DNA of 52,426 nucleotides from an uncultured Bacteroidota bacterium (GTDB taxonomy: Bacteria > Bacteroidota > Bacteroidia > Chitinophagales > Chitinophagaceae): assembly GCA_946479615.1 (NCBI GenBank), contig CAMLGR010000010.1:1-52426 (forward strand), read 5' to 3'. The translations under genes were made by a program, and so were the position numbers. Position 1 is the first letter of the stretch. Every line of letters starts with the position of its first letter. The notes below the pieces were generated by a model. That model did no database searches, was not told where the DNA came from, and saw only the letters and a list, made by a program, of their open reading frames with translations. Positions 17,766 to 33,664 of the stretch are shown in pieces.

Positions 17766-17819
17766 AATGATTTTTAGTATCAGAGACAATATTCAGGCCG
17801 GTTAACGGTGAAATAAGAA

Positions 17820-17859
17820 TCAACAAAAAGCCCCGTCGTATGACGGGGCTTTTTGTTGA
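17820..17859. terminator. Strong bidirectional terminator
   Basis: Perfect 18-bp inverted repeat (TCAACAAAAAGCCCCGTC with a GTAT loop), with a GC-rich core flanked by A/T runs giving a U-tract on either strand. It lies 17 bases past the cytochrome c stop codon and ends that minus-strand operon. Confidence 0.92.
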
Positions 17860-17876
17860 AAACATGATATCTGTTC

Positions 17877-18497
17877 TTATTTCTTTGTAATATACTTTCC
17901 CAGTTCAGTGGGTGGCACTGCACCCGGAACGACATTGCTGACGGGCTTGGTTGATTTAAGAAAAGCGAATATGGCTTTTACATCTTCATCTTTTATATTG
18001 ATAAAATTGCGCCACGGCATCGGGGGTAATAATTCACGACCTTCCGGCATTCCTTTGAATTTTCCTTTGGTCAGGGCTGTCTTGAACTGCTCTTCCGACC
18101 AATTGCCGATACCTGTTTCATCGGAAGTAAGGTTGGCGGAAAAAGAAATACCCCATGGTCCTACCATCGAAGTAGCTGTCATATTGAATAATGCATAATT
18201 TTTGGATGTTGGTCCGTCGAAATTAGCTACCGGTATATAAGAAGGATGGCCGGATAACATGCGATCCATGTCAGGAGCTGGTCCCTGCGGTGTCATCTTC
18301 AACGGCGTGTGACAGTCGTTACATCCCATGGTAGTTACGAGGTATTGTCCTCTTTTAACCAGGCTGTCGTTACTGATTGGCGCGTCTGCTACCGGTTGCG
18401 CTTCTGTGTTAGTGACTTTGACTTCGGGCTGGCTACAGGAGAATGTAAGTGTGATAGCCGCTATCGCTACCGTAGCGATGATGATCATTTTTTTCAT
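17877..18497 (-). CDS. Monohaem c-type cytochrome lipoprotein
   Basis: A 206-residue exported protein. The N-terminus MKKMIIIATVAIAAITLTFSC is a lipoprotein signal (C21), followed by a Glu/Ala-rich linker. A single covalent haem site CNDCH is at 59-63 within KRGQYLVTTMGCNDCHTPL, the form found in small cytochrome c subunits of dehydrogenases and reductases; a methionine-rich PPMPW near 160 could give the axial ligand. It should sit in the periplasm or outer membrane as an electron carrier. It is 40 bases downstream of the hemerythrin gene and ends at a strong terminator, so the two probably form an operon. Confidence 0.88.
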   Translation of the reverse strand: MKKMIIIATVAIAAITLTFSCSQPEVKVTNTEAQPVADAPISNDSLVKRGQYLVTTMGCNDCHTPLKMTPQGPAPDMDRMLSGHPSYIPVANFDGPTSKNYALFNMTATSMVGPWGISFSANLTSDETGIGNWSEEQFKTALTKGKFKGMPEGRELLPPMPWRNFINIKDEDVKAIFAFLKSTKPVSNVVPGAVPPTELGKYITKK

Positions 18498-18537
18498 AAT
18501 TATACTTTTATAGTTTCAGTTGTTAGAGATGAATAGA

Positions 18538-19218
18538 TCAGGCGACTGCTTTTTCAGTCATGATGTTTTCTTGAATCAATTTCCAGCGGGTCACAGGAAG
18601 TTCGTTTTCGGCGGTCGCGGTCAAAGCCTGTAGCACAAAAGGAGGTGCATTTTTTTGTACCTCTTTCAGCCAGGCGATGATTTCGTTGTTGCTCAAACCG
18701 CGCATCATCCATTTACCGGCAAACGCCATTGATTCCGGCGATTGCTTGGACAAAATAGTTTGCGTGAGTTGCTGCAATTCTTCATCACTATAATATCTCC
18801 ACAACAAGCGATTCAGCACTTTTTCTTCTTTCGCCATATGATTAAGGTTAAATATAAGAAATTCTGTATATGCAACATTAATAGCAACACCTGTTTGCCG
18901 GCGGGTTTCGCTGGCTTCGCTATGGAGGAATACAAAAACCAGTTCTTTCAGGCGTTGGGCGAGTTCATGATCTTTGTCATGTTCTTCTTCGAAAACATTT
19001 ACCACGGCGGGCTCATAAGGGGCCAGGGCGGGCAGTACGAGTGAATCTTCGGTATCGGCATGTTTATCAAAAACATCGATTACCTGTTCGATCCGGAGAA
19101 GTACATCTTTGACATCGTCCCGGCTCATAAAATCGGTTTGTTGCAGCAGCAGGGCGGTGTCGTAGAGAAGGGAACGGAGCGCCTTGTGGATCTGGTTAAA
19201 CATATTGTAACGGTTCAT
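18538..19218 (-). CDS. Hemerythrin-like di-iron protein
   Basis: A 226-residue protein whose first 140 residues form a hemerythrin four-helix bundle. All ligands expected for a di-iron site can be placed: H11, H53 and E57 (DKHADTED), H80 and H84 (EEEHDKDHE), H127 and E131 (NLNHMAKEE). Such proteins bind O2, NO or iron in the cytoplasm. The C-terminal 80 residues are helical and unassigned. It is the first gene of an apparent operon with the cytochrome c gene, which points to oxygen or redox handling. A paired-repeat operator (19297-19325) and a -7-like CATCTTTG (19255-19262) lie upstream. Confidence 0.88.
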   Translation of the reverse strand: MNRYNMFNQIHKALRSLLYDTALLLQQTDFMSRDDVKDVLLRIEQVIDVFDKHADTEDSLVLPALAPYEPAVVNVFEEEHDKDHELAQRLKELVFVFLHSEASETRRQTGVAINVAYTEFLIFNLNHMAKEEKVLNRLLWRYYSDEELQQLTQTILSKQSPESMAFAGKWMMRGLSNNEIIAWLKEVQKNAPPFVLQALTATAENELPVTRWKLIQENIMTEKAVA

Positions 19219-19254
19219 AGAAAGAGTTTAATGATTAATGGTTGATTGATGGAT

Positions 19255-19262
19255 CAAAGATG
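19255..19262 (-). promoter_or_regulatory. -7-like element of the hemerythrin operon
   Basis: CATCTTTG on the minus strand, one base from the Bacteroidota TAnnTTTG consensus, exactly 34 bp from the near half of the operator and 36 bases before the start codon. Confidence 0.5.
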
Positions 19263-19296
19263 TCGATTCCGGTGAGGGCATGGAAGGCAGGAGTGT

Positions 19297-19325
19297 ATGA
19301 ATTGAAGAGGGCAATGAATGAGTTG
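19297..19325 (-). promoter_or_regulatory. Paired-repeat operator, copy A (hemerythrin operon)
   Basis: Read on the minus strand: CAACTCAT, 13 bases, CAATTCAT. The half-sites are 21 bp apart, two helical turns. It lies 79 bases upstream of the hemerythrin start. It is one of six such elements in the window, and the layout resembles LytTR-family direct-repeat targets. Confidence 0.6.
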
Positions 19326-19422
19326 AGGGGAAAGTGTCCGGAGCTTTATTTTATTCTTCCGGGTGAACCGGTCCTGATTTTCGGGGAAAAAAGCAAGGAA
19401 CTCTTGTGTTTCAACAACTGGA

Positions 19423-19457
19423 CCCGAACCTATAAGGTTGAACCTTATAGGTTCGGG
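19423..19457. repeat. Perfect inverted repeat at the head of the REP-like module
   Basis: A 15-bp stem CCCGAACCTATAAGG / CCTTATAGGTTCGGG around TTGAA. The right half (CCTTATAGGTTCGG) recurs at about 19659-19674 in the second module copy. There is no U-tract. Confidence 0.75.
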
Positions 19458-19836
19458 CTCGCTGATTAATTTATCCGGGATTTTTAAGAAAAAGAACAAT
19501 CAATGCGTTGCTTAAACAAATAATTGCAGCAATCGATCCGGGATCTTGTATCTCGCAGGGGGCTCCGATGGAGCCGGGATCGTAGCCCTGGAACAAGTCT
19601 ATAAACAGGATGCTCCTGCGGAGCAAGATGAGCGGTAATGAAATTAAATGGTAAGGTTGAACCTTATAGGTTCGGTCTTCCTGATTAATTTATCGGGGAT
19701 TTTTCAGAAAAGAAACAATCAATACGTTCTTTAAACAAATAATTGCAGCAATCGATCCGGATCATTTATTTTACAGGGCTCCAATAAAGCCAGGATTATA
19801 TTTTAAGATGAGTTGCTATAAACAGGATGCTCCTGC
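19434..19836. repeat. Two diverged direct copies of a REP-like module
   Basis: Copy 1 (19434-19618) and copy 2 (19653-19836) share CCTTATAGGTTCGG, GATTAATTTATC, TAATTGCAGCAATCGATCC and CTATAAACAGGATGCTCCTG in the same order, with a 217-219 bp period. Copy 1 carries two perfect short hairpins, GGCTCCGATGGAGCC (19561-19575) and TGCTCCTGCGGAGCA (19611-19625). In copy 2 both have lost their right arms. The module sits directly upstream of a Y1 transposase gene. Confidence 0.75.
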
Positions 19837-20011
19837 AAAATATCTACTCTCCGCAATACCATTCATGTTTTTATCACCCTGCCTGGCTGTTGATATAATA
19901 CCATTCCTCTCGGAAAAATATCCTGAATTCCGAGGAAAATATCCTGTTCAAAAAACATCCCGTTTAAATCCAGATTTTATTTTTATCACATTAAAAAATT
20001 ATTGTGTAATC

Positions 20012-20473
20012 ATGGCCAACACATTTTCTCAAATCTATCTGCAATTTGTCTTTGCTGTAAAGGGAAGACAAAGCCTTGTCCCAAAAGAAAATAAAGAAGA
20101 TCTACATAAATACATAACCGGTCTTGCTCAAAATAGAAAAGCAAAAATGCTGGCCGTGCATTCCATGCCCGATCACACTCATCTCTTCGTTGGTTTTAAA
20201 CCAACCATCTTAATCTGTGATTTTATAAAGGAAATCAAGGTAGAAACCAACGAATTCATAAATGGCAAAAAATGGAAAAATGGCAAATTCAATTGGCAGG
20301 AAGGTTATGGTGTCTTCTCATATTCACAATCACATATTGACAGGGTGATCAGGTATATCAATAACCAGGAAAAGCATCACTATAAAAAAACATTCAAAGA
20401 AGAATATTACGACTTTCTGAAAAAATTCAATATACCATTTGAAGATCGATTTTTATTTGATTTTGTTGAATAA
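20012..20473 (+). CDS. IS200-like Y1 (HUH) transposase
   Basis: A 153-residue tyrosine transposase, full length for a single-domain IS200 TnpA. The HUH metal motif is HTH in SMPDHTHLFVGF, and the candidate nucleophile is the Tyr in DRVIRYINNQEKHH; the WQEGYGVFSYSQS stretch before it is typical of the Bacteroidota members. It should cut and join single-stranded DNA at hairpin-marked ends. The start is MANTFSQIYL at 20012; the frame extends upstream to 19808 only through repeat sequence. No TnpB follows. Repeated hairpin modules lie 5' and a 23-bp perfect hairpin 3', so it may be a REP-associated (RAYT-like) gene rather than a simple IS. Confidence 0.88.
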   Translation: MANTFSQIYLQFVFAVKGRQSLVPKENKEDLHKYITGLAQNRKAKMLAVHSMPDHTHLFVGFKPTILICDFIKEIKVETNEFINGKKWKNGKFNWQEGYGVFSYSQSHIDRVIRYINNQEKHHYKKTFKEEYYDFLKKFNIPFEDRFLFDFVE

Positions 20474-20480
20474 CCCTATC

Positions 20481-20530
20481 AATAATAATAAACGCAAAGA
20501 ATAGAGATATTCTTTGCGTTTATTATTATT
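20481..20530. terminator. Perfect 23-bp hairpin after the transposase
   Basis: The arms start AATAATAATAAACGCAAAG and close over a 4-base GAGA loop. The stem is perfect for 23 bp and A/T-rich at its base. It lies between the convergent transposase and glycosyltransferase genes, so it may be a bidirectional terminator or the right-end hairpin of the transposon. Confidence 0.7.
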
Positions 20531-20539
20531 GCATTTATT

Positions 20540-21898
20540 TCACAATACAGCCTTTTCCTTTTTTGTCACCGGCAACAGCTTCGCGATATGAAACGCCGAT
20601 AACTCATTTGGATCAAATAACCCCAATTCAGAAGACAACCTCTTTATATTTTTCTTGTACACCGGGTCGCTGATGATCTTATCAACTGCCTTGCTGATTT
20701 GTTGCGGTGTTGGCCTTTCTGTCTTTAAATTGATCCCTAATTTAAAATAGCCTATCCGGGCATTGATCTCATTTTTACCTTCATGTATCCCGGCAACCAC
20801 CTGCGGCAATTCATTTTCGATACCCAGCATTACTCCCCCATAACCTCCGTTCGTGATATATACATCTACATACGGCATCACATCGCCGAAAGGAATAAAA
20901 TCCTCTATGATCAGATTCTCCTGCGGAAACATCTTCCGTAATTCCTCCGTACCCGATCCGCCGGTTGTACACACCACCAGGTTATTGGTATTTTTATAGG
21001 CTTCCAATGCAGGTACTAATAATTTATTGATATCCTTCTCCACCGTTCCCTGTGTAACTAAAAACACCCGTTCAAATTCATTCAATCGTTTATCAAACCA
21101 GGGCGCCTTATTCCCCGGTGAAGAATAGGGAAGCAACGCTCCTATAAAATGTATATGACTGCTCATATCACTGCGCTGGTATTCAAAACCAGGAGAGCCG
21201 ATCTGTAACAATACATTGGATTTCCGCACCAGCATATTAAATACACTTTCTCCCTGGTGAGGGATTTTATATTCCGCAAATACTTTATACATGACCTGAT
21301 TAGGTTCCCTGAAAATAATAAGGTCAGAAATTTTTCGCAGCAATGCCTGTTTGATCTTTCCCAAAAAACTATGCGATGGTTCCATACCCAAGCCCACCGG
21401 CGGCAGGTCCTTGGATGTTTCTGTCAGCGGCAATACACCGATCGTTACCACCGGAATTTTCATCAATTCTTTTACAAAAGGAATACCTGTAAACGCACAA
21501 TCGGCTACCATTAGTTCAAACGGAAATTCGCGATACAAATCCTGGATATCTTCATAATATTCCGGAGAACGAAGAATAAATGCATGCACAATATCAAATT
21601 TTAATTTGCTGATCTGCGATTTCTTCTTCGCCCGGTCCGGGAACAACTCATCAAAATTATTGCTATCTACTTCCAGCGCCTTTTTGAACGGATACTGTTT
21701 GATCTGCAGTTTCTCCAGCTTCGCAGTATATGTCCTCGATGAATACCATCTTACATCGGCGCCTAATTCTTTTAAATAAACCGCCAATCCTGTAAGAGGA
21801 TTAAAATGACCATCGGCCGGGAAGTTGGCAAAAAGAATTTTCTTTCCTGCCAGTTGTTGTTTGACCTGATACATATCAGGTGATAATTTCTTTTCCAT
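20540..21898 (-). CDS. GT1-type glycosyltransferase (MGT/UGT-like)
   Basis: A glycosyltransferase of 452 residues with a GT-B fold. The N-terminal domain has LFANFPADGHFNPLTGLA, with H31 the expected catalytic base. The C-terminal donor-binding domain has the signature region FIPFGDVMPYVDVYITNGGYGGVM, in which the usual HGG is NGG. It would transfer a sugar from a nucleotide-sugar to a lipid or small-molecule acceptor in the cytoplasm; the acceptor cannot be deduced. The start at 21898 (MEKKLSPDM) is preferred to 21967 because a predicted -7 element (21954-21961) would place the longer start upstream of transcription. It has its own paired-repeat operator at 21996-22024. Confidence 0.88.
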   Translation of the reverse strand: MEKKLSPDMYQVKQQLAGKKILFANFPADGHFNPLTGLAVYLKELGADVRWYSSRTYTAKLEKLQIKQYPFKKALEVDSNNFDELFPDRAKKKSQISKLKFDIVHAFILRSPEYYEDIQDLYREFPFELMVADCAFTGIPFVKELMKIPVVTIGVLPLTETSKDLPPVGLGMEPSHSFLGKIKQALLRKISDLIIFREPNQVMYKVFAEYKIPHQGESVFNMLVRKSNVLLQIGSPGFEYQRSDMSSHIHFIGALLPYSSPGNKAPWFDKRLNEFERVFLVTQGTVEKDINKLLVPALEAYKNTNNLVVCTTGGSGTEELRKMFPQENLIIEDFIPFGDVMPYVDVYITNGGYGGVMLGIENELPQVVAGIHEGKNEINARIGYFKLGINLKTERPTPQQISKAVDKIISDPVYKKNIKRLSSELGLFDPNELSAFHIAKLLPVTKKEKAVL

Positions 21899-21995
21899 AT
21901 TTTTTATTTGATAGAATATTATAACCCGGTTGTTCTTTCCCGGTATCCTGTTACGAAATTTGATCATCCGGTTTTTTTTTCAAACCCCTACTGAA

Positions 21996-22024
21996 ATGAT
22001 ATGACACAAGCAGCGAATGAATTG
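21996..22024 (-). promoter_or_regulatory. Paired-repeat operator, copy F (glycosyltransferase)
   Basis: Minus strand: CAATTCAT, 13 bases, CATATCAT; 21-bp period. The near half matches the consensus less well (6 of 8). A -7-like AAATTTCG follows at 34 bp. It lies 98 bases upstream of the chosen glycosyltransferase start. Confidence 0.5.
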
Positions 22025-22165
22025 ATGATTGGGGGAACACGGCCGGCCGGCAAGCTGTTTTACCGACCCTTTTTTTTGCTCACGGTCACAGCCAGCCCTG
22101 TATCATCAAAAGCGGTGAGTATCATTAATAAGCAATGAAACCCTGCCGGCAACCGGTTTCGTTGT

Positions 22166-22194
22166 ATGAATTGAGGAAAACAATGAATGAATTG
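22166..22194 (-). promoter_or_regulatory. Paired-repeat operator, copy B
   Basis: Minus strand: CAATTCAT, 13 bases, CAATTCAT. The two half-sites are identical, making this the cleanest copy. It lies between the divergent glycosyltransferase and sensor genes. Relative to the sensor promoter it is inverted and 45 bp from TACATTTG. Confidence 0.6.
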
Positions 22195-22239
22195 TAAAAT
22201 ACCCTGTATGGTCATTTACCAAATACTGGCATCCTGTGT

Positions 22240-22247
22240 TACATTTG
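22240..22247 (+). promoter_or_regulatory. -7 element of the sensor gene
   Basis: TACATTTG matches the Bacteroidota TAnnTTTG consensus exactly. It ends seven bases before the start codon, so the sensor mRNA would be nearly leaderless. Confidence 0.5.
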
Positions 22248-22254
22248 ATACTTC

Positions 22255-25200
22255 ATGCATCGTCTCCGCTATTGCATATTATTATTGCTTTTATATCCCT
22301 GCCGGTCGATGGCCCAGCCATCGCCGCAATATATTTTTTCACATCTCGATACCCGCAGTGGCCTCCTGTCCGAAGAAATAACAAGCGTCTGCCAGGATAA
22401 GAAAGGATATATCTGGGTGGCCAGTATCAGTGGACTACAACGTTATGATGGCAATCGTTTTATCACTTTCCGGCACAACGACCATGATCCGAAAAGCATT
22501 GCCAATGATTTTGTACTAAGCATTTTCCAGGGAGACGATGAGAAATTATGGATCTTATTTGCCGAAAGTAAAATAGGTTATATCGATGAGCGGGATCTGA
22601 GTTTTCACGAAGTGCCATTCCGGCTCAATGTAAAGGACTGGCAATTCATCCAGATAGGAATACAGAAAGATCTATCCGGCAATATTATACTGGGCGCACG
22701 TGCACCCGGAGCTGTTTATGTATATGATAATAAAACGAATCAATTCACCAGGAAGAATGTTCCGTTACAGATCCCCATGAATTGGACCCCTATATCGATC
22801 ACCCAAGACAAAGAGGATCACAATTACTGGATCGCCTGCGATTCAGGCCTGGCAAAATACAACCCCACCACTAAAACACTTTCGTATCCAGGTCATAACG
22901 CAGACAAGGATGAGATCATAGAGGCATTCGCCGGTTACGGCAGCCTGGCGCACCCTTATCTCGATGGTTCAGGAAGATTCTGGATCGTATCCTGGCCACC
23001 CAAAGGACCCGGGCCTTTCCTGTTTACCTATGATACGAAAACCAAAAAAATCAAAGAATGGGAACGCGAACTTTTCCCCTTGCTCCAGTATAAATATCAC
23101 GAGATCCATTTTTTGAAGGAACAGGATGATGGCACCATCTGGCTAACAGGTATGAATATATTTGCCAGGCTCTCTAAAGGTTCCGATAAGTTTGAAGCAA
23201 TTCCCAATGTCAGCACCGATGAGTTCAGTATACGCTTTGACCTGGTCAGGAATATATTTGAAGACAAGGAAATGAATATCTGGGTCAGTACCGATAAAGG
23301 ATTGTATTGGTTCAATCCTTCCGCCCAGATGTTCCAGGTGATCAAAAACCGAAGGGCCGATCGCCCCGATACCGTCTATACTCCCGACGTAAGCGATATC
23401 CTTCAAACAAAAAGAGGCGAAATATTGATCAATACCTGGGGCAACGGCATGTTCAGTTATGACAACAATCTGAATCCTGTCAATATACCCTATGTCAATG
23501 ATGGAGTTAAAAAGGATGAAACACTTAACTGGTGTATACATCAGCGCCCCAATGGCGATATCTGGAGAGGCAGCCAGGATGGAACAATATTCCTGACAAA
23601 AGCAGGTTCAAACATTACCACTTCATTCCGCGATTCAATTTTTGAACAAAGTACTGTCCGACAGATCACAGAAGATAAAAAAGGGAACCTGTGGCTCGCC
23701 ACCAACAGGGGTTTAATAGTGAAATGGGATGCTGTCACTGCCAGGTTTACGGTACTGCACCGGTTAAACAGTACCATCTTCCGTCTATACACCGATAAAC
23801 GCGGTGATATCTGGGCCTGCACTGCCAATATCGGCGCTATTCATTTCAATCCTGTTACCGGCGCCATTATAGGAAGATATACAGCCGATGCGCCAACCGG
23901 AAAAAAGCTGATGACGTACAGGGCCGAAGATATTGCGCAATACAATGATAGCATCTATATGATCGCAAGCGCCGGCCTGAATATCCTGAATATCAAAACC
24001 GGGAATATCACATTCCTGACATCCGAAGGTGGATTGCCTTCCAATTCCGTTAATAATATTGTTATTGATAAAAAAGGATTTGCATGGATCACAACTACCA
24101 GCCGTCTTTGCCGCTATGGCCTGAAAGATTCCGCCATCAGTATTTTTAATGAAGAGGATGGTATACCAACCGGCAACTTTAATGTAGGCTCTTCCACCAC
24201 GCTGAATGATGGCCGTCTTGCTTTTGGCCGCGCTCATGATTTTATTGTTTTTGATCCCGACCCGGTCGAGACAGACAATATGCAGGCGCCGGGTGTGGAG
24301 ATCACCGGGTTTTCATTGATGAATACGCCACTGCCGCTGGATTCTTTACAAAGACAAAAAGTTATTCAACTACGGTACAATGAAAATTCCATAAGTATCG
24401 AATACTCCACGCTTACATATCACAACCACTTTTCTCTTACCTATATGATGGAGGGATTGGATAAGGAATGGATCACCGACAATGGTTCCCGCCAGGCGAT
24501 TTATAATTACCTGCCACCCGGCGATTATGTTTTTAAGGTCAAACAATCCAATAGTCCTGTCAATGCACCTGTGATCGCCACACTCAAAATATCGGTACGC
24601 GCTCCTTTCTGGAAATCCTGGTGGTTTTATTGCCTCCTGGCGCTGATAGCAGCCGGGCTTATTTACTGGGAAGATAAAGAACGGATCCGTCGCAAAGGCA
24701 CCGTTCAAAAGATGCGGAGTGATATTGCCGGCAATTTGCATGAAGAAGTCAATATCACGCTTAATAATATCAATGTATTAAGCGAGATTGCCCGTATCAA
24801 GGCAGACAAGGATATTGAGCAATCCAAAACTTATATTACCGAGATACATGAGAAGAGCCATGATATGATCATTGCTATGGACGATATGTTATGGAGCATC
24901 GATCCGAATAATGATAATATGAGTAAAACCATCGACCGGATCAAGGAATTTGCCGATGCGCTCCGTTCCCGGCATCATGTAGTGATCAATTTACAGGCCG
25001 ATGCAAAAGTAGCTTCGCTGAAAGCCGATATGAAAACGCGTCACGAAGTAATGATCATTTACAAGCTTGCGCTTCGGTTGCTGGTAGAAGAAATGATCTC
25101 GCCGCAAACCAGCATTCAACTCGATCTGCACCGCGCCCAGTTGCAATTTAATATATTCGCCCACTATAAAAAATTACCTGAAAATAATAACCGCGCGATC

Positions 25201-25305
25201 CAGATGATCGCAGAGATGAAAGAAAGAGCCACCTCCATCGGGGCTTTACTGGAAATTCAATCCGATGAAAAAGGAACGGCGGTGATCCTGGCGGTGAAAA
25301 CTTAA
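22255..25305 (+). CDS. Two-component propeller sensor with degenerate kinase end
   Basis: A 1016-residue membrane sensor. The signal peptide is RLRYCILLLLLYPCRSMAQ. About 650 residues of regulator-propeller repeats follow (units such as DKKGYIWVAS, DKKGNLWLAT, DKRGDIWACT), then a Y_Y_Y domain (about 690-775) and one TM helix (about 784-803, FWKSWWFYCLLALIAAGLIY). The cytoplasmic part has a HisKA_3-like helix with H829 in IAGNLHEEVNITLNN, but the ATPase region (about 920-1016) lacks a recognisable N-box and DxGxG motif; only the final MKERATSIGALLEIQS and GTAVIL remain. It probably cannot bind ATP by itself. The periplasmic ligand is unknown. Confidence 0.88.
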   Translation: MHRLRYCILLLLLYPCRSMAQPSPQYIFSHLDTRSGLLSEEITSVCQDKKGYIWVASISGLQRYDGNRFITFRHNDHDPKSIANDFVLSIFQGDDEKLWILFAESKIGYIDERDLSFHEVPFRLNVKDWQFIQIGIQKDLSGNIILGARAPGAVYVYDNKTNQFTRKNVPLQIPMNWTPISITQDKEDHNYWIACDSGLAKYNPTTKTLSYPGHNADKDEIIEAFAGYGSLAHPYLDGSGRFWIVSWPPKGPGPFLFTYDTKTKKIKEWERELFPLLQYKYHEIHFLKEQDDGTIWLTGMNIFARLSKGSDKFEAIPNVSTDEFSIRFDLVRNIFEDKEMNIWVSTDKGLYWFNPSAQMFQVIKNRRADRPDTVYTPDVSDILQTKRGEILINTWGNGMFSYDNNLNPVNIPYVNDGVKKDETLNWCIHQRPNGDIWRGSQDGTIFLTKAGSNITTSFRDSIFEQSTVRQITEDKKGNLWLATNRGLIVKWDAVTARFTVLHRLNSTIFRLYTDKRGDIWACTANIGAIHFNPVTGAIIGRYTADAPTGKKLMTYRAEDIAQYNDSIYMIASAGLNILNIKTGNITFLTSEGGLPSNSVNNIVIDKKGFAWITTTSRLCRYGLKDSAISIFNEEDGIPTGNFNVGSSTTLNDGRLAFGRAHDFIVFDPDPVETDNMQAPGVEITGFSLMNTPLPLDSLQRQKVIQLRYNENSISIEYSTLTYHNHFSLTYMMEGLDKEWITDNGSRQAIYNYLPPGDYVFKVKQSNSPVNAPVIATLKISVRAPFWKSWWFYCLLALIAAGLIYWEDKERIRRKGTVQKMRSDIAGNLHEEVNITLNNINVLSEIARIKADKDIEQSKTYITEIHEKSHDMIIAMDDMLWSIDPNNDNMSKTIDRIKEFADALRSRHHVVINLQADAKVASLKADMKTRHEVMIIYKLALRLLVEEMISPQTSIQLDLHRAQLQFNIFAHYKKLPENNNRAIQMIAEMKERATSIGALLEIQSDEKGTAVILAVKT

Positions 25306-25329
25306 CAAAGAATATCAAATGAAGAAGGA

Positions 25330-25430
25330 AATGTAAAACCGAAAAATATAAGATGTAGAATGTAAAAGGAGTGATCGATAATCGATCACTCCTTTTACAT
25401 TCTACATCTTTCGGTTCTATATTTTACATT
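25330..25430. repeat. Long palindrome between sensor and LytTR genes
   Basis: Two perfect 29-bp arms (25351-25379 and 25381-25409) around a single central A (GTGATCGAT-A-ATCGATCAC core). Imperfect extensions on both sides contain AAATGTAAAA and ACCGAAA words. The right extension touches the LytTR stop codon at 25430. It can form a very stable transcript hairpin on either strand and lies between convergent genes. Confidence 0.8.
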
Positions 25431-26218
25431 TATTTACCCATCCACTTCTTAAAATCCGTCACCTTCTCCCGGCTGACCAGCGCTTCTTTGTCCACCGTCG
25501 GCTTTAACTGCAGGATAAGACGATTGCCAAAGTAATCGTCGATCTTATCGATGCTGTTCACCGAAACATAAAATGAACGGCTGATACGGAAGTATTGAGC
25601 AGGATCGAGCATATCCTGTAATTCATCCATGGTATAATCAACTACGAATTTCCGATTATCATTTGTCTTAAAGAAGTTAAGGCGACCATCACTAAAGAAG
25701 TAAGCGATCTCGTCTATCTCCACACTCACCAGTTTCTGCGCATGTTTTACCAGGAAACGTTTCCGGTAATCTTTTGGTTGCAGCTTACGTTGCAATTCTT
25801 TTACCAGTGAATCGAGGTTCACATCTTTGTTCTCCCCGTTGGTATCACCGGCGCCATACGCTTGTTTTATTTTCTTGAACTTGGCCAAAGCTGCCTGTAA
25901 TTCCTCTTTCTGTACCGGTTTCAGCAGGTAATCGATACTATTGATCTTAAATGCTTTCAACGCATACTCATCGTAGGAAGTGGTAAAGATCACGGGGCTT
26001 TTTATTTCCACGAGATTAAATATCTCGAAGCTCTGCCCATCAGCCAGTTCAATATCCATCAGGATAAGATCGGGCTGTGGATTTTGCTGAATCCATTCTA
26101 CCGTGCTTTTGATACTATCTGTGATTCCGGTTATTTCGGCTTCACTATCAACAGAGGCCAGTGTTTTCTGTATTTTCTTTACAGCCAGATCCTCATCTTC
26201 TACGATTAGTATTTTCAT
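25430..26218 (-). CDS. LytTR-family response regulator
   Basis: A 262-residue regulator. The receiver (about 1-120) has the acidic EDED pocket, phospho-acceptor D55 in LILMDIEL, TTSYDEYA and the KPVQ lysine. A variable linker (about 120-150) leads to the LytTR DNA-binding domain (about 155-260) with KRFLVKHAQKLVSVEIDEI, YFFSDGRLNFFKT, and the hallmark FFRISRSFYVSVNSIDKI-like segment (here YFRISRSFYVSVNSIDKI). LytTR proteins bind two direct repeats about two helical turns apart. It is the last gene of a kinase-kinase-regulator operon, 59 bases after the second kinase, and is the natural candidate to bind the paired-repeat elements in this window. Confidence 0.95.
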   Translation of the reverse strand: MKILIVEDEDLAVKKIQKTLASVDSEAEITGITDSIKSTVEWIQQNPQPDLILMDIELADGQSFEIFNLVEIKSPVIFTTSYDEYALKAFKINSIDYLLKPVQKEELQAALAKFKKIKQAYGAGDTNGENKDVNLDSLVKELQRKLQPKDYRKRFLVKHAQKLVSVEIDEIAYFFSDGRLNFFKTNDNRKFVVDYTMDELQDMLDPAQYFRISRSFYVSVNSIDKIDDYFGNRLILQLKPTVDKEALVSREKVTDFKKWMGK

Positions 26219-26277
26219 CAGTTACTTTTTAGTTGTTTACCTTCAATAACACCGGGTTCGCCGGCATTCTCATGTGT

Positions 26278-27339
26278 TTATTTTTTAATAGTCTCTTCCT
26301 TGTTATCATTCCATACCAGGGGCAATACCACCATGAAATTATCTTTCCCTTCCACAATCTGGAAACCTTTCTGCTTCATCAGGCTATATTTCGCCTGGAT
26401 ATTCGTTAACCCGATCCTGGTAGAAGCTTTTACCAATTGCTTACGCTGGAGATTGTTATTAACGACCATTTTGTTTCCGGCCGCCGTGAATATTTCTATG
26501 ACCAGCGGTTGCAACCGGGAAACAATATTATGTTTTACTGCATTCTCTACCAGCAATTGCAAACTCAACGAAGGCAACAGGTATGGATAATAGCGTTTAT
26601 CGATATCCATATTCAGCTGCAATCCGCTTCCATATCTTGTCCGTAACAATTTATAATAGGATTGAATGAATTTTATCTCCTTTTCAACTGTACTTACCCC
26701 ATCCTCGTTACTCTTCAATAAATACCGGTATACATTGCTCAGTTCATCAAGAAATTTTTCCGCTTCCTTTTTATCTTCCTGTATCAATGATGATAAGGTA
26801 TTAAAACAATTAAATAAAAAATGCGGGTTGATCTGGCTCTTTAAGGTTTCAAATTCCTGCTCCATGTTCATCTGTTCCAGCAATTCCCGTTCACTCAGGC
26901 TTTCCTTGTATTTGTCCAGCAAGTATAATACTTCCCAAAGAGTTACAAAAAGAAAATTGACACAAAGACCAACAACATATCCCCACTTCAGGTCATCCAT
27001 TTTCAACTGATATCCGAATATATGAAACCAGTCATACACATAAAAGATAGCCAGTACCGACGGCGTCATCACAAGGATATTAGCGAGAAATTTATAAACG
27101 ATTCTTATAAAAGTATGTTTCAGTTCAGGGAATTTCCGGTGAATCAGGGCTTCATACTGTACATGGCTGAACCAGGACAGGATTCCGATGCAATAGAGTA
27201 ATGCAGAAGAAAAAACCAATATCCTCCATTCCTTTAGCGACCGATCGCCGTATATGATCTGGTTTAGCACCAATGCAATAATTGGCATCGACAAGACGAA
27301 ACTAAAAATCTGCACTTTATTCGGCTTCGCTATTCTCAT
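26278..27339 (-). CDS. LytS-type sensor histidine kinase (second of a pair)
   Basis: A 353-residue kinase with about four transmembrane segments in the first 140 residues. It has the His_kinase motif with H173 in KSQINPHFLFNCFNTLSS and an ATPase region retaining the N-box (LQLLVENAVKHN) and a GLTNIQAKY segment. The G1 box is reduced (VVNNNLQ), which is common in Bacteroidota LytS proteins, so activity is likely. No periplasmic domain is visible; sensing is probably in the membrane. The gene starts at ATGA overlapping the upstream kinase stop, meaning coupled translation and possibly heterodimer formation with its paralogue. Confidence 0.92.
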   Translation of the reverse strand: MRIAKPNKVQIFSFVLSMPIIALVLNQIIYGDRSLKEWRILVFSSALLYCIGILSWFSHVQYEALIHRKFPELKHTFIRIVYKFLANILVMTPSVLAIFYVYDWFHIFGYQLKMDDLKWGYVVGLCVNFLFVTLWEVLYLLDKYKESLSERELLEQMNMEQEFETLKSQINPHFLFNCFNTLSSLIQEDKKEAEKFLDELSNVYRYLLKSNEDGVSTVEKEIKFIQSYYKLLRTRYGSGLQLNMDIDKRYYPYLLPSLSLQLLVENAVKHNIVSRLQPLVIEIFTAAGNKMVVNNNLQRKQLVKASTRIGLTNIQAKYSLMKQKGFQIVEGKDNFMVVLPLVWNDNKEETIKK

Positions 27340-28388
27340 ACAACTGCCTCCTCTTTTTTAATCAATGGCAATAATACCATGCGGTGCGTAGCTGTTTCAT
27401 ATACTTCGACTTCAGGTTTGAACAATAATTTGTACTTGCTTACCAGGTTATCCAGCGCTTCTTCATAATCCATGATATCTTTTACCGGTTTAGGTTGCAG
27501 GGTATTTTTAATGACAAGCGCGCTTTTATTGTTAGTATAGATCTCGATGATCATCGGGTTGCTTTTACTGAAGGCATTCCGGTAAATGATATTATCCAAT
27601 ACTACCTGCAGGCTCAATGGAGGGATCATTTTTGTTTTATCGATATCATTCACCCTTATACTCACATCCAATGCCGTTCCAAACCGTGTTTTATTAAGAT
27701 AGAGATAGGATTGAATGAATTTCAGCTCTTCCTCCAGGCTTACCAGTTGTTCATCATCACCTTTCAGCAGGTAACGATACACGCGAGTTATCTCGTCGAG
27801 GAACAGTTCCGCTTCCTTTTCGTCTTCTTGTATCAATGAGGATAAGGTATTAAAACAGTTAAACAAAAAATGCGGGTTGATCTGTCTTTTCAAACCAAGC
27901 AAGCGGCTGCGGTGATAAGCACTTTGCAGGCGGCCCGTTTCCGTCACCGAGATCTTCCATTTTTCCCAACCTGCAGCTGCTTCGTTTAAGAAAGTAAGCA
28001 AGGTACTGGCGAGACAGGCAAAACCAGTCGTCCACCATTCCATAGATCTCCTGGCCTCACATTCTACCCAGTTGATATTTTCATAGACGAAATAAAGACC
28101 CTGCAACATCAGCAGGTTCATTACGTAAAACAAGGGCAGCATGACACCGATGCGTTTGAATAGCTGGCTGTCTTCCGGCAGGCGTCGTTTTATTATGGTT
28201 GCCACCACGCCAAAGATGGCATAGATAAAAGCAAAGTATAAAATGGATATCCCGAAACTTTGCAGAAAGATTTTCAAAGAACTGAAAATACAGCTACCAA
28301 ATATCAATAAGTTGATAAGGATGGTATAGGGTAACATGAACCATAAAAAGATCATCGGCTCTTTACTGCTGTATCTCTTAATTTGCAT
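27336..28388 (-). CDS. LytS-type sensor histidine kinase paralogue with eroded ATPase motifs
   Basis: A 350-residue paralogue of the next gene: both have the phospho-acceptor at residue 173 in QINPHFLFNCFNTLSSLIQED, followed by a near-identical stretch ending VYRYLLK. Here the N-box reads LQVVLDNIIYRNAFS in place of LQLLVENAVKHN, and the region that should carry the GL-type G2 box reads EALDNLVSKYKLL. ATP binding may be lost while the His is kept. About four N-terminal TM helices are present. It is the first gene of the operon; its promoter region carries paired-repeat copy C. Confidence 0.9.
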   Translation of the reverse strand: MQIKRYSSKEPMIFLWFMLPYTILINLLIFGSCIFSSLKIFLQSFGISILYFAFIYAIFGVVATIIKRRLPEDSQLFKRIGVMLPLFYVMNLLMLQGLYFVYENINWVECEARRSMEWWTTGFACLASTLLTFLNEAAAGWEKWKISVTETGRLQSAYHRSRLLGLKRQINPHFLFNCFNTLSSLIQEDEKEAELFLDEITRVYRYLLKGDDEQLVSLEEELKFIQSYLYLNKTRFGTALDVSIRVNDIDKTKMIPPLSLQVVLDNIIYRNAFSKSNPMIIEIYTNNKSALVIKNTLQPKPVKDIMDYEEALDNLVSKYKLLFKPEVEVYETATHRMVLLPLIKKEEAVV

Positions 28389-28453
28389 TACTACAAATTA
28401 ACACAATTTTAGAAGGCCGGCCGGCACCTGCGTACCATTTGCAATTTTTCCGG

Positions 28454-28482
28454 ATGAATTGAGGAAAACGATGTATGAAATG
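28454..28482 (-). promoter_or_regulatory. Paired-repeat operator, copy C (kinase-regulator operon)
   Basis: Minus strand: CATTTCAT, 13 bases, CAATTCAT; 21-bp period, 66 bases upstream of the first kinase start. No -7-like element is at 34 bp; the nearest is TAAAATTG at 42 bp (28404-28411). Its place upstream of the regulator's own operon suggests autoregulation. Confidence 0.55.
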
Positions 28483-28613
28483 CGCATATCTCTCTCACTA
28501 ACCTTTATTTTACACTGATTTCCAATCAATTAAGGCTCTATTTTTGTAACTGCTATTTATTGGATCTTAAACTGACATCAGACTGTTTTACTACAATTGA
28601 TCTGCATTACCTG

Positions 28614-28769
28614 TTATTTCTTTGCCGTATCCAAATGCGATGGTTGTTCAAACATCACTTCCCATTCATTGTAACAAGCGCCTTTCGATTTCTTATAATT
28701 CTTTGCACCCACATACACCGCAGATAAACCCAGCAGCACCAGCGCTATTACCTGTAACGTCTTTTTCAT
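28614..28769 (-). CDS. 51-residue hypothetical membrane or exported protein
   Basis: A short frame starting MKKTLQVIALVLLGLSAVYV: a basic start, then one hydrophobic helix, followed by a charged tail (KNYKKSKGACYNEWEV) with one Cys and the ending DTAKK. It begins 16 bases after the stop of the 281-residue membrane protein gene on the same strand, so the two are probably cotranscribed. The signal-anchor and A-rich start context support a real gene. I do not recognise a family; it may be a small partner of the upstream protein. Confidence 0.65.
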   Translation of the reverse strand: MKKTLQVIALVLLGLSAVYVGAKNYKKSKGACYNEWEVMFEQPSHLDTAKK

Positions 28770-28785
28770 ATCATTTTATTTCCGG

Positions 28786-29628
28786 TTATAATTCTTTCAG
28801 CCATTGCTTTGCAAATGCAGTAGTAACCGTACAGACTTCTTTACCTGCCCGAAAGATCATTTTCCAGTCATTATTCTTTGCTTCGTAGGCAGGGTTCACA
28901 AATTTCTTTTTACCATTCTTATCTACCAGTTCTGCCGTAAAATCTACAGTAGAAGCGATGGCCAAATATTTTTCCAGCCTTGTTTTTACCAGTTGGCTGT
29001 AATCTCCGGGATATTTATTTTCCCATTCGGTCATATCTTCTTTATAGCTTCTTTCATCACTTTCCTTTTTATATACTTCATCCTGGTAAAATAATTCGAT
29101 CATGGAACTGTTTGGATCCTGGTATTCTTTCAGGTTATTCTGGTGCATTTCCAATACTCCTGCCATGATCTTTTTCATATCCGCATTGCTCGTTTTGATA
29201 ACATCTTCTGTTTCTTTGATCGCCTTTTTTGTTTCGTCGATCTTTTCCTTCCGTATATCTTCTTTTGTTTTTACGCTAACTACAGGAGCAACGGGTTTTG
29301 AATTGATTCTTGCCTTTTCATATTCTGTTTTGAACGCATTGCTGCTCATATACTTTTTGGTATACTCCAGCAGGTCGGTTGCTACTGCGGCTCTGTCGCC
29401 TGCTGCAATATTCTTTGCATTACGGATACTGTAATAGTCAACATAGTTATTAAGAAAACTATTTTTGATCTTCTCCGTTCCCTGCAATTCGGATATACCC
29501 AGTTGTTTCCAGATATCGGCAGGCAAACGGCGGGAGACAGTAAAAGAAAAAAGCAATACGCTGATGATGGCCAGCAAGACTACATTGATACAAACCCGCA
29601 GCCAGGTTCTATGAGATCTCTTTTTCAT
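28786..29628 (-). CDS. Membrane-anchored hypothetical protein
   Basis: A protein of about 280 residues with a basic N-terminus and one transmembrane helix (about 10-29, VCINVVLLAIISVLLFSFTV). A periplasmic, mostly helical and highly charged region with a coiled-coil-like middle (KIDETKKAIKETEDVIK) follows, and a beta-like C-terminal third (VDFTAELVDKNGKKKFVNP, WKMIFRAGKE). No known domain is recognised. The start at 29628 (MKKRSHRTW) is preferred for its ATTATG context; 29640 adds four residues. A paired-repeat operator (29703-29731) with a -7-like CATCTTTA at 34 bp precedes it, placing it in the predicted LytTR regulon. Confidence 0.8.
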   Translation of the reverse strand: MKKRSHRTWLRVCINVVLLAIISVLLFSFTVSRRLPADIWKQLGISELQGTEKIKNSFLNNYVDYYSIRNAKNIAAGDRAAVATDLLEYTKKYMSSNAFKTEYEKARINSKPVAPVVSVKTKEDIRKEKIDETKKAIKETEDVIKTSNADMKKIMAGVLEMHQNNLKEYQDPNSSMIELFYQDEVYKKESDERSYKEDMTEWENKYPGDYSQLVKTRLEKYLAIASTVDFTAELVDKNGKKKFVNPAYEAKNNDWKMIFRAGKEVCTVTTAFAKQWLKEL

Positions 29629-29660
29629 AAATAAGGTCATGGTTAATGATTTTTAAAGTG

Positions 29661-29668
29661 TAAAGATG
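29661..29668 (-). promoter_or_regulatory. -7-like element of the membrane-protein operon
   Basis: CATCTTTA on the minus strand, exactly 34 bp from the near half of operator D. It has the same CATCTTT core as the hemerythrin promoter. Confidence 0.45.
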
Positions 29669-29702
29669 ACCCGGCGGAAAGCGGAAAGAAACACCAGTCT
29701 GC

Positions 29703-29731
29703 ATGAACTGGCGGAGAGGCTGTATGAATTG
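29703..29731 (-). promoter_or_regulatory. Paired-repeat operator, copy D (hypothetical membrane protein)
   Basis: Minus strand: CAATTCAT, 13 bases, CAGTTCAT; 21-bp period. It is 75 bases upstream of the chosen start codon. Confidence 0.6.
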
Positions 29732-29758
29732 CCGGAAAGGTTTTGGGTTATAGGTGAA

Positions 29759-29822
29759 AAATGATGAGTTATGAATGAAGAATTATTCCTCATTAATAAT
29801 TCTTCGCTCATCATTAAAAAGT
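29759..29822. repeat. Imperfect inverted repeat downstream of the M14 peptidase
   Basis: The left arm AATGATGAG...GAAGAATTATT pairs with AATAATTCTTCGCTCATCATT around a CCTCATT loop, with an 8-base bulge in the left arm. It lies just past the peptidase stop codon and probably marks its transcript end. Confidence 0.55.
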
Positions 29823-29837
29823 CTAACACCACACGCC

Positions 29838-30914
29838 TTACTCCTTTAAAAACACCTCCCTTATTGCTTTTGCATACAGATTCACCTGTTTCCGGCAGTA
29901 GTGTCGCGCGTAGGGGTCTGTATAATCGGAAGGTCGTTTGTATCCCGGAAATTCGATAGTTAATAGCCTGATTGCAGGGCGGCCATTCACGGGATCATCA
30001 ACGGCAGTAGACGCCCAGCTTCCCAATGAAACTCCATAGCCCCTGTTACCCGGCAACCTGGAACCGAGCAGGTTTCGTTTCTGCCATTTACCGGCTTCGG
30101 CAACAGGCGGATCGCAATAATATAAGGAAGTGGGCCTTTTATTCAATTGATTACCGGGTGTGCTTCCGCCATTCTTTTCAATATGCATCGCGATAGAAAT
30201 TGCCAAACAGCTATCGCTTGCATATTCCAGCGCCTCACCCTTCGCTGTCGTACGGGGATCAGCATAAATACCAGCAAGACCGGGCACCCTGATCGCATGA
30301 AGATTCACGATCCGTTGAGGTTTGAATTCCTGTATCATTTTCAGCAATAACTGGTTTTCTTTTTCAATGGCGCGACCTGCAAAATCAACCGGCTTATCAT
30401 CGTCGAAAGCAGTGCCCAATGCAGGCATCTGGCGGTTTGGATCAGCCGATTCCGTATGAGAATAACGGCCCACATTATTCGTGCTTCCTATCGAGGACGG
30501 ATTGGAAATTGCATGACCCGCATTGTCCGGGAATAAACAGGGAATAACAACAACAGAATAATCATTATCGCCTGTTGCCGCCAACTGGTCCAGCAATACA
30601 CGTGCTACTTCAATAGCTGATAATTCAGATCCATGCACACCTCCGATCACCATTGCTCTTCCCGTGCCGGCACCGGGAAAATAATAGGCCTCGATAGGAT
30701 GACCATTTTTGGAAAAACCTGCAATTCCTTTAATGGCCACCGGGCTTTTCATAGCAACGCTGACAGTAAAAGGGGACATCGTACGGATTGATTTCATCCC
30801 TTCTTCACGGGTAACAGGCGCAGGTTTACTATCAGCTGAAAATGATACTGCATAGGTTAACAACAGCAATACGATCCCCACCGGCATCGCCAGCTTTCTC
30901 CACATACTTTTCAT
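29838..30914 (-). CDS. M14-family zinc peptidase, exported
   Basis: A 358-residue protein with an N-terminal signal (about 8-26, LAMPVGIVLLLLTYAVSFSA). It has a carboxypeptidase-like M14 fold: zinc ligands H94 and E97 in GGVHGSELSA and H206 in VNLHAIR, the substrate-binding DPNRQMP (N160, R161), and the general-base Glu in LLTIEFPGYK. This set also fits murein-peptide amidases of the MpaA type and the succinylglutamate desuccinylase-like group; an exported member next to an OmpA-domain lipid or wall-binding protein favours a peptidoglycan-peptide substrate. It starts 12 bases after the OmpA gene stop, so they form an operon. Confidence 0.85.
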   Translation of the reverse strand: MKSMWRKLAMPVGIVLLLLTYAVSFSADSKPAPVTREEGMKSIRTMSPFTVSVAMKSPVAIKGIAGFSKNGHPIEAYYFPGAGTGRAMVIGGVHGSELSAIEVARVLLDQLAATGDNDYSVVVIPCLFPDNAGHAISNPSSIGSTNNVGRYSHTESADPNRQMPALGTAFDDDKPVDFAGRAIEKENQLLLKMIQEFKPQRIVNLHAIRVPGLAGIYADPRTTAKGEALEYASDSCLAISIAMHIEKNGGSTPGNQLNKRPTSLYYCDPPVAEAGKWQKRNLLGSRLPGNRGYGVSLGSWASTAVDDPVNGRPAIRLLTIEFPGYKRPSDYTDPYARHYCRKQVNLYAKAIREVFLKE

Positions 30915-30926
30915 ACGACACTATTC

Positions 30927-32216
30927 TTATTGTTTGATAAATTCTACTCTCCTGTTCTGGCTTTTTCCTTCTTTGGTCTTGTTATCTGCTACCGGCGCTG
31001 ATTCACCTTTTCCATCGGTTTCCATCTTTGCTTCATCAATACCGAATTCAGTAGCCAGTGCCGTTTTCACCGCAGCCGCTCTCTTTTTGGATAATTCCAG
31101 GTTGGCTGCATCCGTGCCATCGCTATCCGTATGCCCAACGATCTTCACTTTGATGCCTTCATTCTTTTTCAATACATCGGCAATCTCTTTCAACACACCA
31201 TAACTTTCCGGCTTGATAGCGGCTGAATTAACGCTGAATAAGATGCCCGTAGTAGAGAATGTCCCTTCTTCCACGAGTTTATGCCTGGCATCCGGTTTAC
31301 CTGTTGCAAGTTTGATATTACTTATATAGATGGCATATTGCGCATCGCTGTAATTCGTATTCCCGATCTCGAATAGCAATTGATTCATTACATAATTCAG
31401 GGGAATACCTTTCGGCACATCGAACAATTTTTCCTCGTTGATCCATAACCTGAAACGCTCCTTCTGCACCTGTATGGCAACATGTATAGGCTGGCCATAC
31501 CATTGTTCCAGCGCACTAAAAGGCTTGACCTCGCTATGGAAATAATCCTTGTCATCCAGCCAGGCATTTACTTTTACTTTGGAGGATTTGAATTCACCGG
31601 GATAGATGGTAGCAACAGTAGCGCTGTATTTCTTATAGCCTTTCAGAAAGCTGTTACCGGTCGTGTTCTCCTCTTTGGTTGAAAACAGGCCCACACGGAA
31701 CTCGGGATACATCCAGCCATTATTTTTTAATTGCATGATAACATCAAATTCGGCTGAATAACTATCGGTAAACCCTTTCTGATTGCTCGTGAGATATACA
31801 AACGGGCTATGAACGCGTAACCACTGACCGGGAAATTTATCCAGTGTCACCACTTCCCCTGTACCATTGGTATTCCAGCCTATGGGCAATTCCGCCAGTG
31901 ATTCCTGCTCGAAATTGTCGAAGTAGACAATTTTTTCGCCAGGCACGAAATCATACCGGGAAAAACTTTTTAAAGAAGATTCCTTTACGGTATCTGTTAC
32001 AGGCTCCTGCCCGGTTTCTGCTGTTTCTTTCTCTGGTTGTTCCTGGGTAGATTTCCCTTCTGCTTTATCGAGTGCCTTATCAATAGCGGCATCTGTTTTT
32101 TTATCGATGCGCTGGTTGGTTTTACTTTTCACTTTATTCATGATATTGCCAAACTGCGCGTGTGAAGATGAAGTGGCGGCAACAAGAATAAAAGCAATAA
32201 AAAATATTCTTTTCAT
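30927..32216 (-). CDS. OmpA-family peptidoglycan-binding protein
   Basis: A 429-residue exported protein. The signal peptide is RIFFIAFILVAATSSSHAQ. A Lys/Glu-rich region (about 30-85) is followed by a central beta domain that looks lectin/jellyroll-like (GEKIVYFDNFEQESLAELP, FDVIMQLKNNG). The C-terminal OmpA domain (about 320-429) has GHTDSDGTDAANLELSKKRA and the NRRVEF ending that binds the peptide of peptidoglycan. It should link the outer membrane or a surface ligand to the wall. The gene heads an operon with the M14 peptidase and carries operator copy E with a well-placed -7-like CAATTTTG. Confidence 0.9.
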   Translation of the reverse strand: MKRIFFIAFILVAATSSSHAQFGNIMNKVKSKTNQRIDKKTDAAIDKALDKAEGKSTQEQPEKETAETGQEPVTDTVKESSLKSFSRYDFVPGEKIVYFDNFEQESLAELPIGWNTNGTGEVVTLDKFPGQWLRVHSPFVYLTSNQKGFTDSYSAEFDVIMQLKNNGWMYPEFRVGLFSTKEENTTGNSFLKGYKKYSATVATIYPGEFKSSKVKVNAWLDDKDYFHSEVKPFSALEQWYGQPIHVAIQVQKERFRLWINEEKLFDVPKGIPLNYVMNQLLFEIGNTNYSDAQYAIYISNIKLATGKPDARHKLVEEGTFSTTGILFSVNSAAIKPESYGVLKEIADVLKKNEGIKVKIVGHTDSDGTDAANLELSKKRAAAVKTALATEFGIDEAKMETDGKGESAPVADNKTKEGKSQNRRVEFIKQ

Positions 32217-32260
32217 ACTATAAGGTTTAATGGTCGATGGCTTGATTTAGTGTGCGGGCA

Positions 32261-32268
32261 CAAAATTG
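32261..32268 (-). promoter_or_regulatory. -7-like element of the OmpA-peptidase operon
   Basis: CAATTTTG on the minus strand, one mismatch from TAnnTTTG, exactly 34 bp from the near half of operator E. Confidence 0.5.
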
Positions 32269-32302
32269 CTGTCGATAAATACTCTTATCAATTCCTCTAT
32301 GC

Positions 32303-32331
32303 ATGAAATGGAGTAAGCGCCGGATGAATTG
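32303..32331 (-). promoter_or_regulatory. Paired-repeat operator, copy E (OmpA-peptidase operon)
   Basis: Minus strand: CAATTCAT, 13 bases, CATTTCAT; 21-bp period. It is 87 bases upstream of the OmpA start codon. Confidence 0.6.
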
Positions 32332-32333
32332 TA

Positions 32334-32370
32334 CATAAAAAAACTCCCGTCAAAAAATGACAGGAGTTTT
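32334..32370 (-). terminator. Rho-independent terminator of the xylanase gene
   Basis: Stem AAAACTCCTGTCA / TGACGGGAGTTTT on the minus strand with a short loop and one mismatch, followed by a run of T. It is 22 bases after the GH10 stop codon. Confidence 0.85.
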
Positions 32371-32391
32371 CAGACAAAAAATAGACAGCAA

Positions 32392-33528: not shown

Positions 33529-33664
33529 ATGCAAAATGAGTTTACTGATAATGATTAGCAATACTAAGTCATGCCGGAATAATTACCGACGGGGGATAAA
33601 AAAAACCCTATATTTTTTCCTGGAAAACAGAAAGTCTTTGCAGCAAATATTTTAGATTTATAGA

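Follow-up and report, generated by a model that had tools for sequence, protein, structure and literature searches.

A putative YpdB-type paired direct-repeat operator around a LytS/LytTR system of an uncultured Chitinophagaceae bacterium

Described LytTR systems and the locus compared with them

Bacteroidota encode many LytTR regulators, and one of these is encoded at 25430-26218 in a stretch of 52,426 nt from an uncultured member of the Chitinophagaceae (contig CAMLGR010000010.1), the whole of which is hereafter called the window and supplies the coordinates used throughout. On the minus strand around this gene lie six paired direct repeats of the pattern CAnTTCAT-N13-CAnTTCAT, which, as judged from sequence, are very probably the operators through which the LytTR protein activates its own operon and the envelope and redox operons lying around it. 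The operator would be YpdB-like and thus of a known kind, with no operator of any Bacteroidota LytTR defined by title or abstract among the matches listed. LytTR binding sites have been described as repeats of 9-11 nt with spacers of 11-13 nt, YpdB binding a direct repeat of GGCATTTCAT at the Escherichia coli yhjX promoter (PMC4847170). In E. coli K-12 MG1655, where YpdB is annotated as PyrR, the yhjX promoter carries CATTTCAT-N13-CATTTCAT 83 bp ahead of the start codon; this fits the window pattern without a mismatch and has the same 21-bp period and orientation, each half-site being followed two bases later by a C. Because of this exact match the LytS/LytTR system of the window can be taken to have an operator of the YpdB type, YpdA/YpdB being likewise a LytS/LytTR pair. 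The match to yhjX comes directly from the computation, as do the sites themselves, the recurrence of gene families, the association with LytTR and the distance to the -7 box set out below.

The likeness extends to the CATTTCAT half-site and the 21-bp period, although the 33-bp model trained on the window and its relatives scores the yhjX site at 15.6 bits, short of the 20-bit threshold applied here. For YpdB one E. coli target gene is described (PMC4847170), as opposed to several adjoining operons in the window, and the window differs from YpdA/YpdB further in its pair of LytS genes and its propeller sensor. Identity of the LytTR protein as an orthologue of YpdB, the regulator of the pyruvate-responsive YpdA/YpdB system, was considered and rejected, the two proteins being 30% identical and no transporter family being found among the targets scanned.

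AgrA has a different half-site sequence and a quorum-sensing context, BtsS/BtsR has a different motif, and the Reg_prop/Y_Y_Y sensors of Bacteroidota are hybrid two-component systems and their relatives. AgrA, a LytTR activator of Staphylococcus aureus, acts at two direct repeats upstream of promoters, with the centre of the proximal repeat near -60 (PMC4227749). The E. coli BtsS/BtsR system belongs to the LytS/LytTR family, the promoters that it targets share a conserved binding motif, and its described target is a transporter gene (PMC5552118). The 1016-aa protein of the window shares the propeller and Y_Y_Y architecture with the Reg_prop/Y_Y_Y sensors, but differs from them in its weakly HisKA_3-like C-terminus and in that its gene is itself a proposed target.

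The six sites and their counterparts in relatives

The sequence-only reading of the window had six intergenic elements sharing the consensus on the minus strand, always with a 21-bp period, each before a named operon. Their coordinates, strand and period held for all six, but only four copies are exact (22166, 28454, 29703 and 32303), the two others (19297 and 21996) having one mismatch each. No exact copy occurred in any of 100 dinucleotide shuffles of the window (mean 0.00). Two extra one-mismatch matches, at 5047 (+) and 9942 (-), are both intragenic. The six sites, with their scores under the trained model, are as follows.

19297..19325, minus strand: putative operator of the hemerythrin/cytochrome c operon, one mismatch (CAACTCAT in the first repeat), 27.0 bits
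21996..22024, minus strand: putative operator of the glycosyltransferase gene, one mismatch (CATATCAT in the second repeat), 18.2 bits, the lowest of the six and excluded from the 20-bit phasing set
22166..22194, minus strand: putative operator in the divergent glycosyltransferase/propeller region, exact, 40.5 bits, the highest of the six
28454..28482, minus strand: putative operator of the lytS-lytS-lytTR operon (autoregulation), exact, 36.1 bits
29703..29731, minus strand: putative operator of the gene for a 284-aa protein, exact, 29.4 bits
32303..32331, minus strand: putative operator of the OmpA/M14-like operon, exact, 33.4 bits

The sites do precede the operons named, but the 22166 site has the inverted orientation with respect to the propeller gene, which begins 59 bp from it, the annotated glycosyltransferase start lying 195 bp away on the other side. 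This annotated start, at 21967, is 25 bp from the 21996 site, and the in-frame ATG at 21898 is probably the likelier start. An RNA element was considered as well, but 17800-33700 has no Rfam match at the gathering threshold.

The relatives were found by searching genome contigs with the LytTR protein alone, the best 80 loci being kept and numbered L001-L080, and the 33-bp model was trained on the window and L001-L020 (21 sequences) starting from 19 exact seeds. At positions outside the selection, these seeds have a C two bases past the half-site in 15 of 19 cases at both the first and the second repeat, with an A after the second half-site in 15 of 19 but after the first in only nine. In the training sequences the trained model gave 73 hits of at least 18 bits, compared with none for the reversed model and a mean of 0.85 for permuted ones; the untrained seed model gave 45, with none reversed and 0.3 permuted. 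Across the window and L001-L037, perfect half-site pairs occur at period 21 (n = 21), period 20 (n = 5) and period 24 (n = 2); none has any other period between 8 and 39. The operator is in the main a pair of short direct repeats with a period of about 21 bp, but the constancy of the period seen inside the window does not extend to the relatives. Four of the five period-20 pairs begin no more than about 120 bp upstream of lytTR (L001, L003, L006 and L007, at about 9884-9940), the fifth lying elsewhere in L007, and since these perfect pairs stand so shortly upstream of lytTR the spacing of the site seems to tolerate one base. Three overlapping sites in a 21-bp register (four half-sites) precede the propeller gene at L002:13931-14005, and overlapping site pairs are also found in L010, L012, L014, L020 and L024.

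The density of sites follows the orthologous LytTR. Counting sites of at least 20 bits, L001-L020, with LytTR proteins 69-77% identical to that of the window, hold 60 in 17 of the 20 loci (15.46 per 100 kb), 13 loci of intermediate identity hold ten in seven loci (3.71 per 100 kb) and 47 loci with a more distant LytTR hold one (0.11 per 100 kb), the reversed model finding none across L001-L080 at the same threshold. Five of the distant loci carry Chitinophagaceae labels, whether of genera or of the family (L036, L056, L057, L058 and L071), and have no site. In a further set, L185-L199 (15 stretches from 14 genomes), there are 47 sites or 16.81 per 100 kb, a density biased upward because 11 of the genomes were picked for a match near LytTR; the three stretches picked by LytTR alone, L197-L199, have eight sites of at least 20 bits in 59.7 kb.

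Alignments of LytTR proteins, one of them of 29 sequences without L019 and, by choice, without L032 and others, show YFGNRL kept in the site-bearing proteins, mostly together with FRISRS or FRISRA. Several site-less paralogues are NRQ-like in place of FRISRS/FRISRA, E. coli YpdB has HRS, and L023 keeps YFGNRL yet has no site. The last R of this FhRhHRS-type motif is followed by S or A in most of the orthologues that have sites (by G in L024), by S in E. coli YpdB and by Q in several site-less paralogues; the residues of AgrA that contact DNA have been placed in the corresponding motif (PMC4227749). This variation (FRISRS/A as against NRQ-like) may offer a lead to recognition rather than a test of it. 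In L019, which has sites, the translated LytTR stretch at 10001-10789 has two stop codons, perhaps a frameshift.

Whole-genome scans place the sites of relatives in concentration at the lytTR locus, yet not confined there. In 19 genomes of relatives, those of L016, L004 and L017 being left out, the exact pattern has 32 matches against one for the reversed pattern, half of them (16) inside the fetched lytTR loci; a longer pattern with up to two mismatches has 124 against three in 17 of these genomes. With up to one mismatch allowed, 147 genomes of the family have 53 matches in 36 genomes against three reversed, a period-22 control giving three against one. The LytTR protein is found at E ≤1e-70 in 36 of the 147 genomes, with both LytTR and site in 22, LytTR only in 14, site only in 14 and neither in 97 (Fisher p = 3e-8, in a test that ignores genome size and relatedness). 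A LytTR match stands no more than 20 kb from 19 of the 53 matches, where about 0.15 would be expected on an assumed total of about 640 Mb. Since 22 is no multiple of three, the period-22 control does not fully account for the background of coding heptads at 21 bp, and for this reason the weight is placed on locality and on the phasing of the -7 box.

The earlier proposal that regulator and sites belong together is supported by site density, locality, -7 phasing and the match at yhjX. The proposal of a local regulon is supported in part, sites clustering at the lytTR locus but strong ones also lying away from it in some relatives.

Promoter distance and recurring target genes

The consensus of the sigma-A -7 element in Bacteroidota is TAnnTTTG (PMC9723704), and matches with at most one mismatch were counted at every offset past the site, sites without full flank being excluded and overlapping sites in the 21-bp register being counted separately. 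Offsets 30-32 hold 26 matches at 64 training sites (other offsets, mean 0.58) and three at 15 sites of L021-L080 (others 0.18). The same offsets stand out in two held-out sets in whose choice the -7 box had no part, with seven matches at 17 sites of L141-L154, chosen for their sites (others 0.06), and 13 at 47 sites of L185-L199 (others 0.27). A second peak at offsets 50-53 has 11, seven, two and eight matches in these four sets respectively. In about half of the sites across relatives, held-out loci included, a -7 box stands about 31 nt, or less often about 51 nt, downstream, an arrangement that suggests an activator. The predicted boxes of the window are as follows.

19255-19262: -7 box of the 19297 site, CATCTTTG, one mismatch, offset 31
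22240-22247, plus strand: -7 box of the 22166 site, exact TACATTTG, 44 nt away on the inverted side (best box on the forward side, two mismatches)
28394-28401: -7 box of the 28454 site, TTAATTTG, one mismatch, offset 49, just off the second peak
29661-29668: -7 box of the 29703 site, CATCTTTA, two mismatches, offset 31
32261-32268: -7 box of the 32303 site, CAATTTTG, one mismatch, offset 31

For inverted sites, most of which stand at propeller genes or genes of propeller size, the exact boxes are at distances of 23, 34 or 43-44. Measured from the centre of the nearer half-site, exact boxes of forward sites cluster at about 38 and 58 and those of inverted sites at about 28, 39 and 49, the clusters of the two orientations being spaced by about one helical turn. 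The inverted boxes agree with the forward phase (p = 0.0005) for the 16 exact boxes at distances of 15-75, eight exact boxes beyond 75 being left out and three of the 16 coming from related promoters (L141, L142 and L149); when one mismatch is allowed, the phasing becomes weak (R = 0.26 at period 10.5, n = 61). The spacing suggests that the regulator has to occupy one helical face, whichever way round it is bound, though the inverted sample is small and some of its promoters are related.

The genes of the window locus are these.

25430..26218, minus strand: LytTR response regulator, proposed activator, with receiver (PF00072) and LytTR (PF04397) domains
26278..27339, minus strand: LytS-type histidine kinase 2 (PF06580)
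27336..28388, minus strand: LytS-type histidine kinase 1 (PF06580)
22255..25305, plus strand: propeller (Reg_prop/Y_Y_Y) sensor of 1016 aa, proposed target, its C-terminus weakly HisKA_3-like, below cut-off
20540..21967, minus strand: glycosyltransferase, proposed target, macrolide-glycosyltransferase-like but far under the curated cut-off
18538..19218, minus strand: hemerythrin-domain protein (PF01814), proposed target
17877..18497, minus strand: cytochrome c (PF00034), next gene on the same strand, a likely operon partner by spacing
28786..29640, minus strand: 284-aa protein of no family, proposed target
30927..32216, minus strand: OmpA-family protein (PF00691), proposed target
29838..30914, minus strand: M14/MpaA-like peptidase (weak matches), next gene on the same strand, a likely operon partner by spacing
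15454-16926: sigma-54 regulator

The two genes with a LytS-type His_kinase domain adjoin the LytTR gene, both kinases having a PHFLFN motif, and the regulator with its receiver and LytTR domains (Pfam) is encoded together with the sites, as in a LytS/LytTR two-component system. A degenerate ATPase in LytS 1 was considered and is not claimed, the alignment not being clear. Pfam finds no receiver or DNA-binding domain in the propeller protein and no family for the 284-aa protein at 1e-3. A sequence search of the Protein Data Bank (PDB) with the LytTR protein gave 36 matches, every one of them in the receiver domain or in the linker as far as residue 165, with none covering the LytTR domain. The stretch 19400-20473 holds a lone IS200-like Y1 transposase gene (19808-20473) with two similar stretches beside it, at about 19434 and 19652 as seen by eye, an arrangement that resembles a REP-associated transposase with its repeats.

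In the window and L001-L024, 54 target genes were called (window members included), with 17 sites left without a same-strand target by a crude open reading frame (ORF) caller. They form clusters of lytS (14), propeller (six, not counting the window's own gene with its inverted site), cytochrome-c type (six, of which three were scanned and gave a Pfam match), lytTR itself (six), OmpA (five), glycosyltransferase (four), a 250-285-aa family (three), the 284-aa protein of the window (two), hemerythrin (two) and NmrA-like genes (two), with four single genes. Related glycosyltransferase genes in L001, L006 and L007 have the site 76-78 bp upstream, proteins similar to the 284-aa protein have one in L019, L146, L190, L197 and L198, and proteins similar to the OmpA of the window in L001, L003, L006, L020 and L190. 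The stretches L185-L199, mostly chosen for a known nearby site, repeat the neighbourhood with sites. L146 is a second complete syntenic locus, with sites before lytS, propeller and 284-aa genes, and its genome (G010) also holds L011, a locus with no site of at least 20 bits. Away from lytTR loci, sites precede a cytochrome-c-like gene (L144) and a gene adjoining cytochrome c (L154, with a 26% LytTR match also nearby). Strong sites also precede LytS-type genes in three stretches of one genome (G004; L145, L150 and L153), with no LytTR match by tblastn at E ≤1e-6 in these 14-16 kb stretches, and these genes are possible orphan sensors feeding the same regulator.

Alternative readings and what the operator would mean

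In the mechanism proposed, a pair of LytTR domains would occupy the direct repeats, which are spaced by two helical turns, beside a promoter of sigma-A type with its -7 box at a preferred number of turns farther downstream; the regulator would thereby activate its own operon and the neighbouring envelope and redox operons, with the signal coming from the LytS pair and possibly from the propeller protein. Here we infer binding, an activating and not a repressing role, the specificity of the kinases and the stimulus. Several observations weigh against activation by this LytTR. The regulator is only 30% identical to YpdB, three of the 20 close loci (L004, L011 and L017) have no site of at least 20 bits, and about half of the sites have no box at the preferred distances. 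Within the window the exact -7 box is found only at the inverted propeller site, most others having one or two mismatches. The distant loci belong for the most part to other genera, which partly confounds regulator with taxon, and related species are non-independent samples. Further, 34 of the 53 one-mismatch matches have no detected LytTR within 20 kb, and in 14 genomes a match occurs although LytTR is not found at E ≤1e-70. Coding heptad repeats probably account for some of these 34 matches, and others may be trans targets.

That the sites bind LytTR but mainly repress, or form a mixed on/off switch, for example at the divergent propeller region, is unlikely. LytTR proteins can repress, as AgrA does at bsaA (PMC4227749), and the site is inverted at the propeller promoter in the window and several relatives; however, forward sites that have a -7 box lie upstream of the box, not over it, at preferred spacings, which is the usual geometry of an activator, and the exact boxes of inverted sites, in a small sample, favour the same helical face. 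It is less likely still that the sites belong to another regulator, for example a LytTR paralogue or the sigma-54 regulator, with no part played by the neighbouring lytTR. The strong sites at LytS-type genes in the stretches of G004 would fit such an owner, and some genomes do encode two or three LytTR proteins at E ≤1e-70, but the sites follow the orthologue, only one being found around the 47 more distant LytTR loci, and in many relatives they precede lytTR or its operon, paired repeats of such spacing having been described for LytTR regulators (PMC4847170). As 21 bp is seven codons, coding heptads can mimic the pattern and give some background, yet for the window sites to be chance, coding or structural repeats of no regulatory role is barely credible given their intergenic position, the absence of exact copies from the shuffles, their recurrence at promoters of similar genes, the -7 phasing in held-out loci and the lack of an Rfam match at the gathering threshold.

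Activation through the six sites by the LytTR protein encoded among them would provide a closely defined, testable operator, a set of targets that recurs and a promoter geometry from which activation is predicted. A wider proposal, which we hold tentatively and regard as somewhat doubtful, is that one recognition code and one activation geometry extend across phyla, with CAnTTCATnC half-sites two turns apart, in either orientation on the right face, serving a LytTR hub in Bacteroidota that would switch on its own two kinases, the propeller sensor, genes of envelope and redox function and orphan LytS genes scattered elsewhere. If this were so, several sensors would feed one regulator that in turn controls those sensors. 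The half-site, apparently common to E. coli YpdB, would help to predict the regulons of other LytTR proteins.

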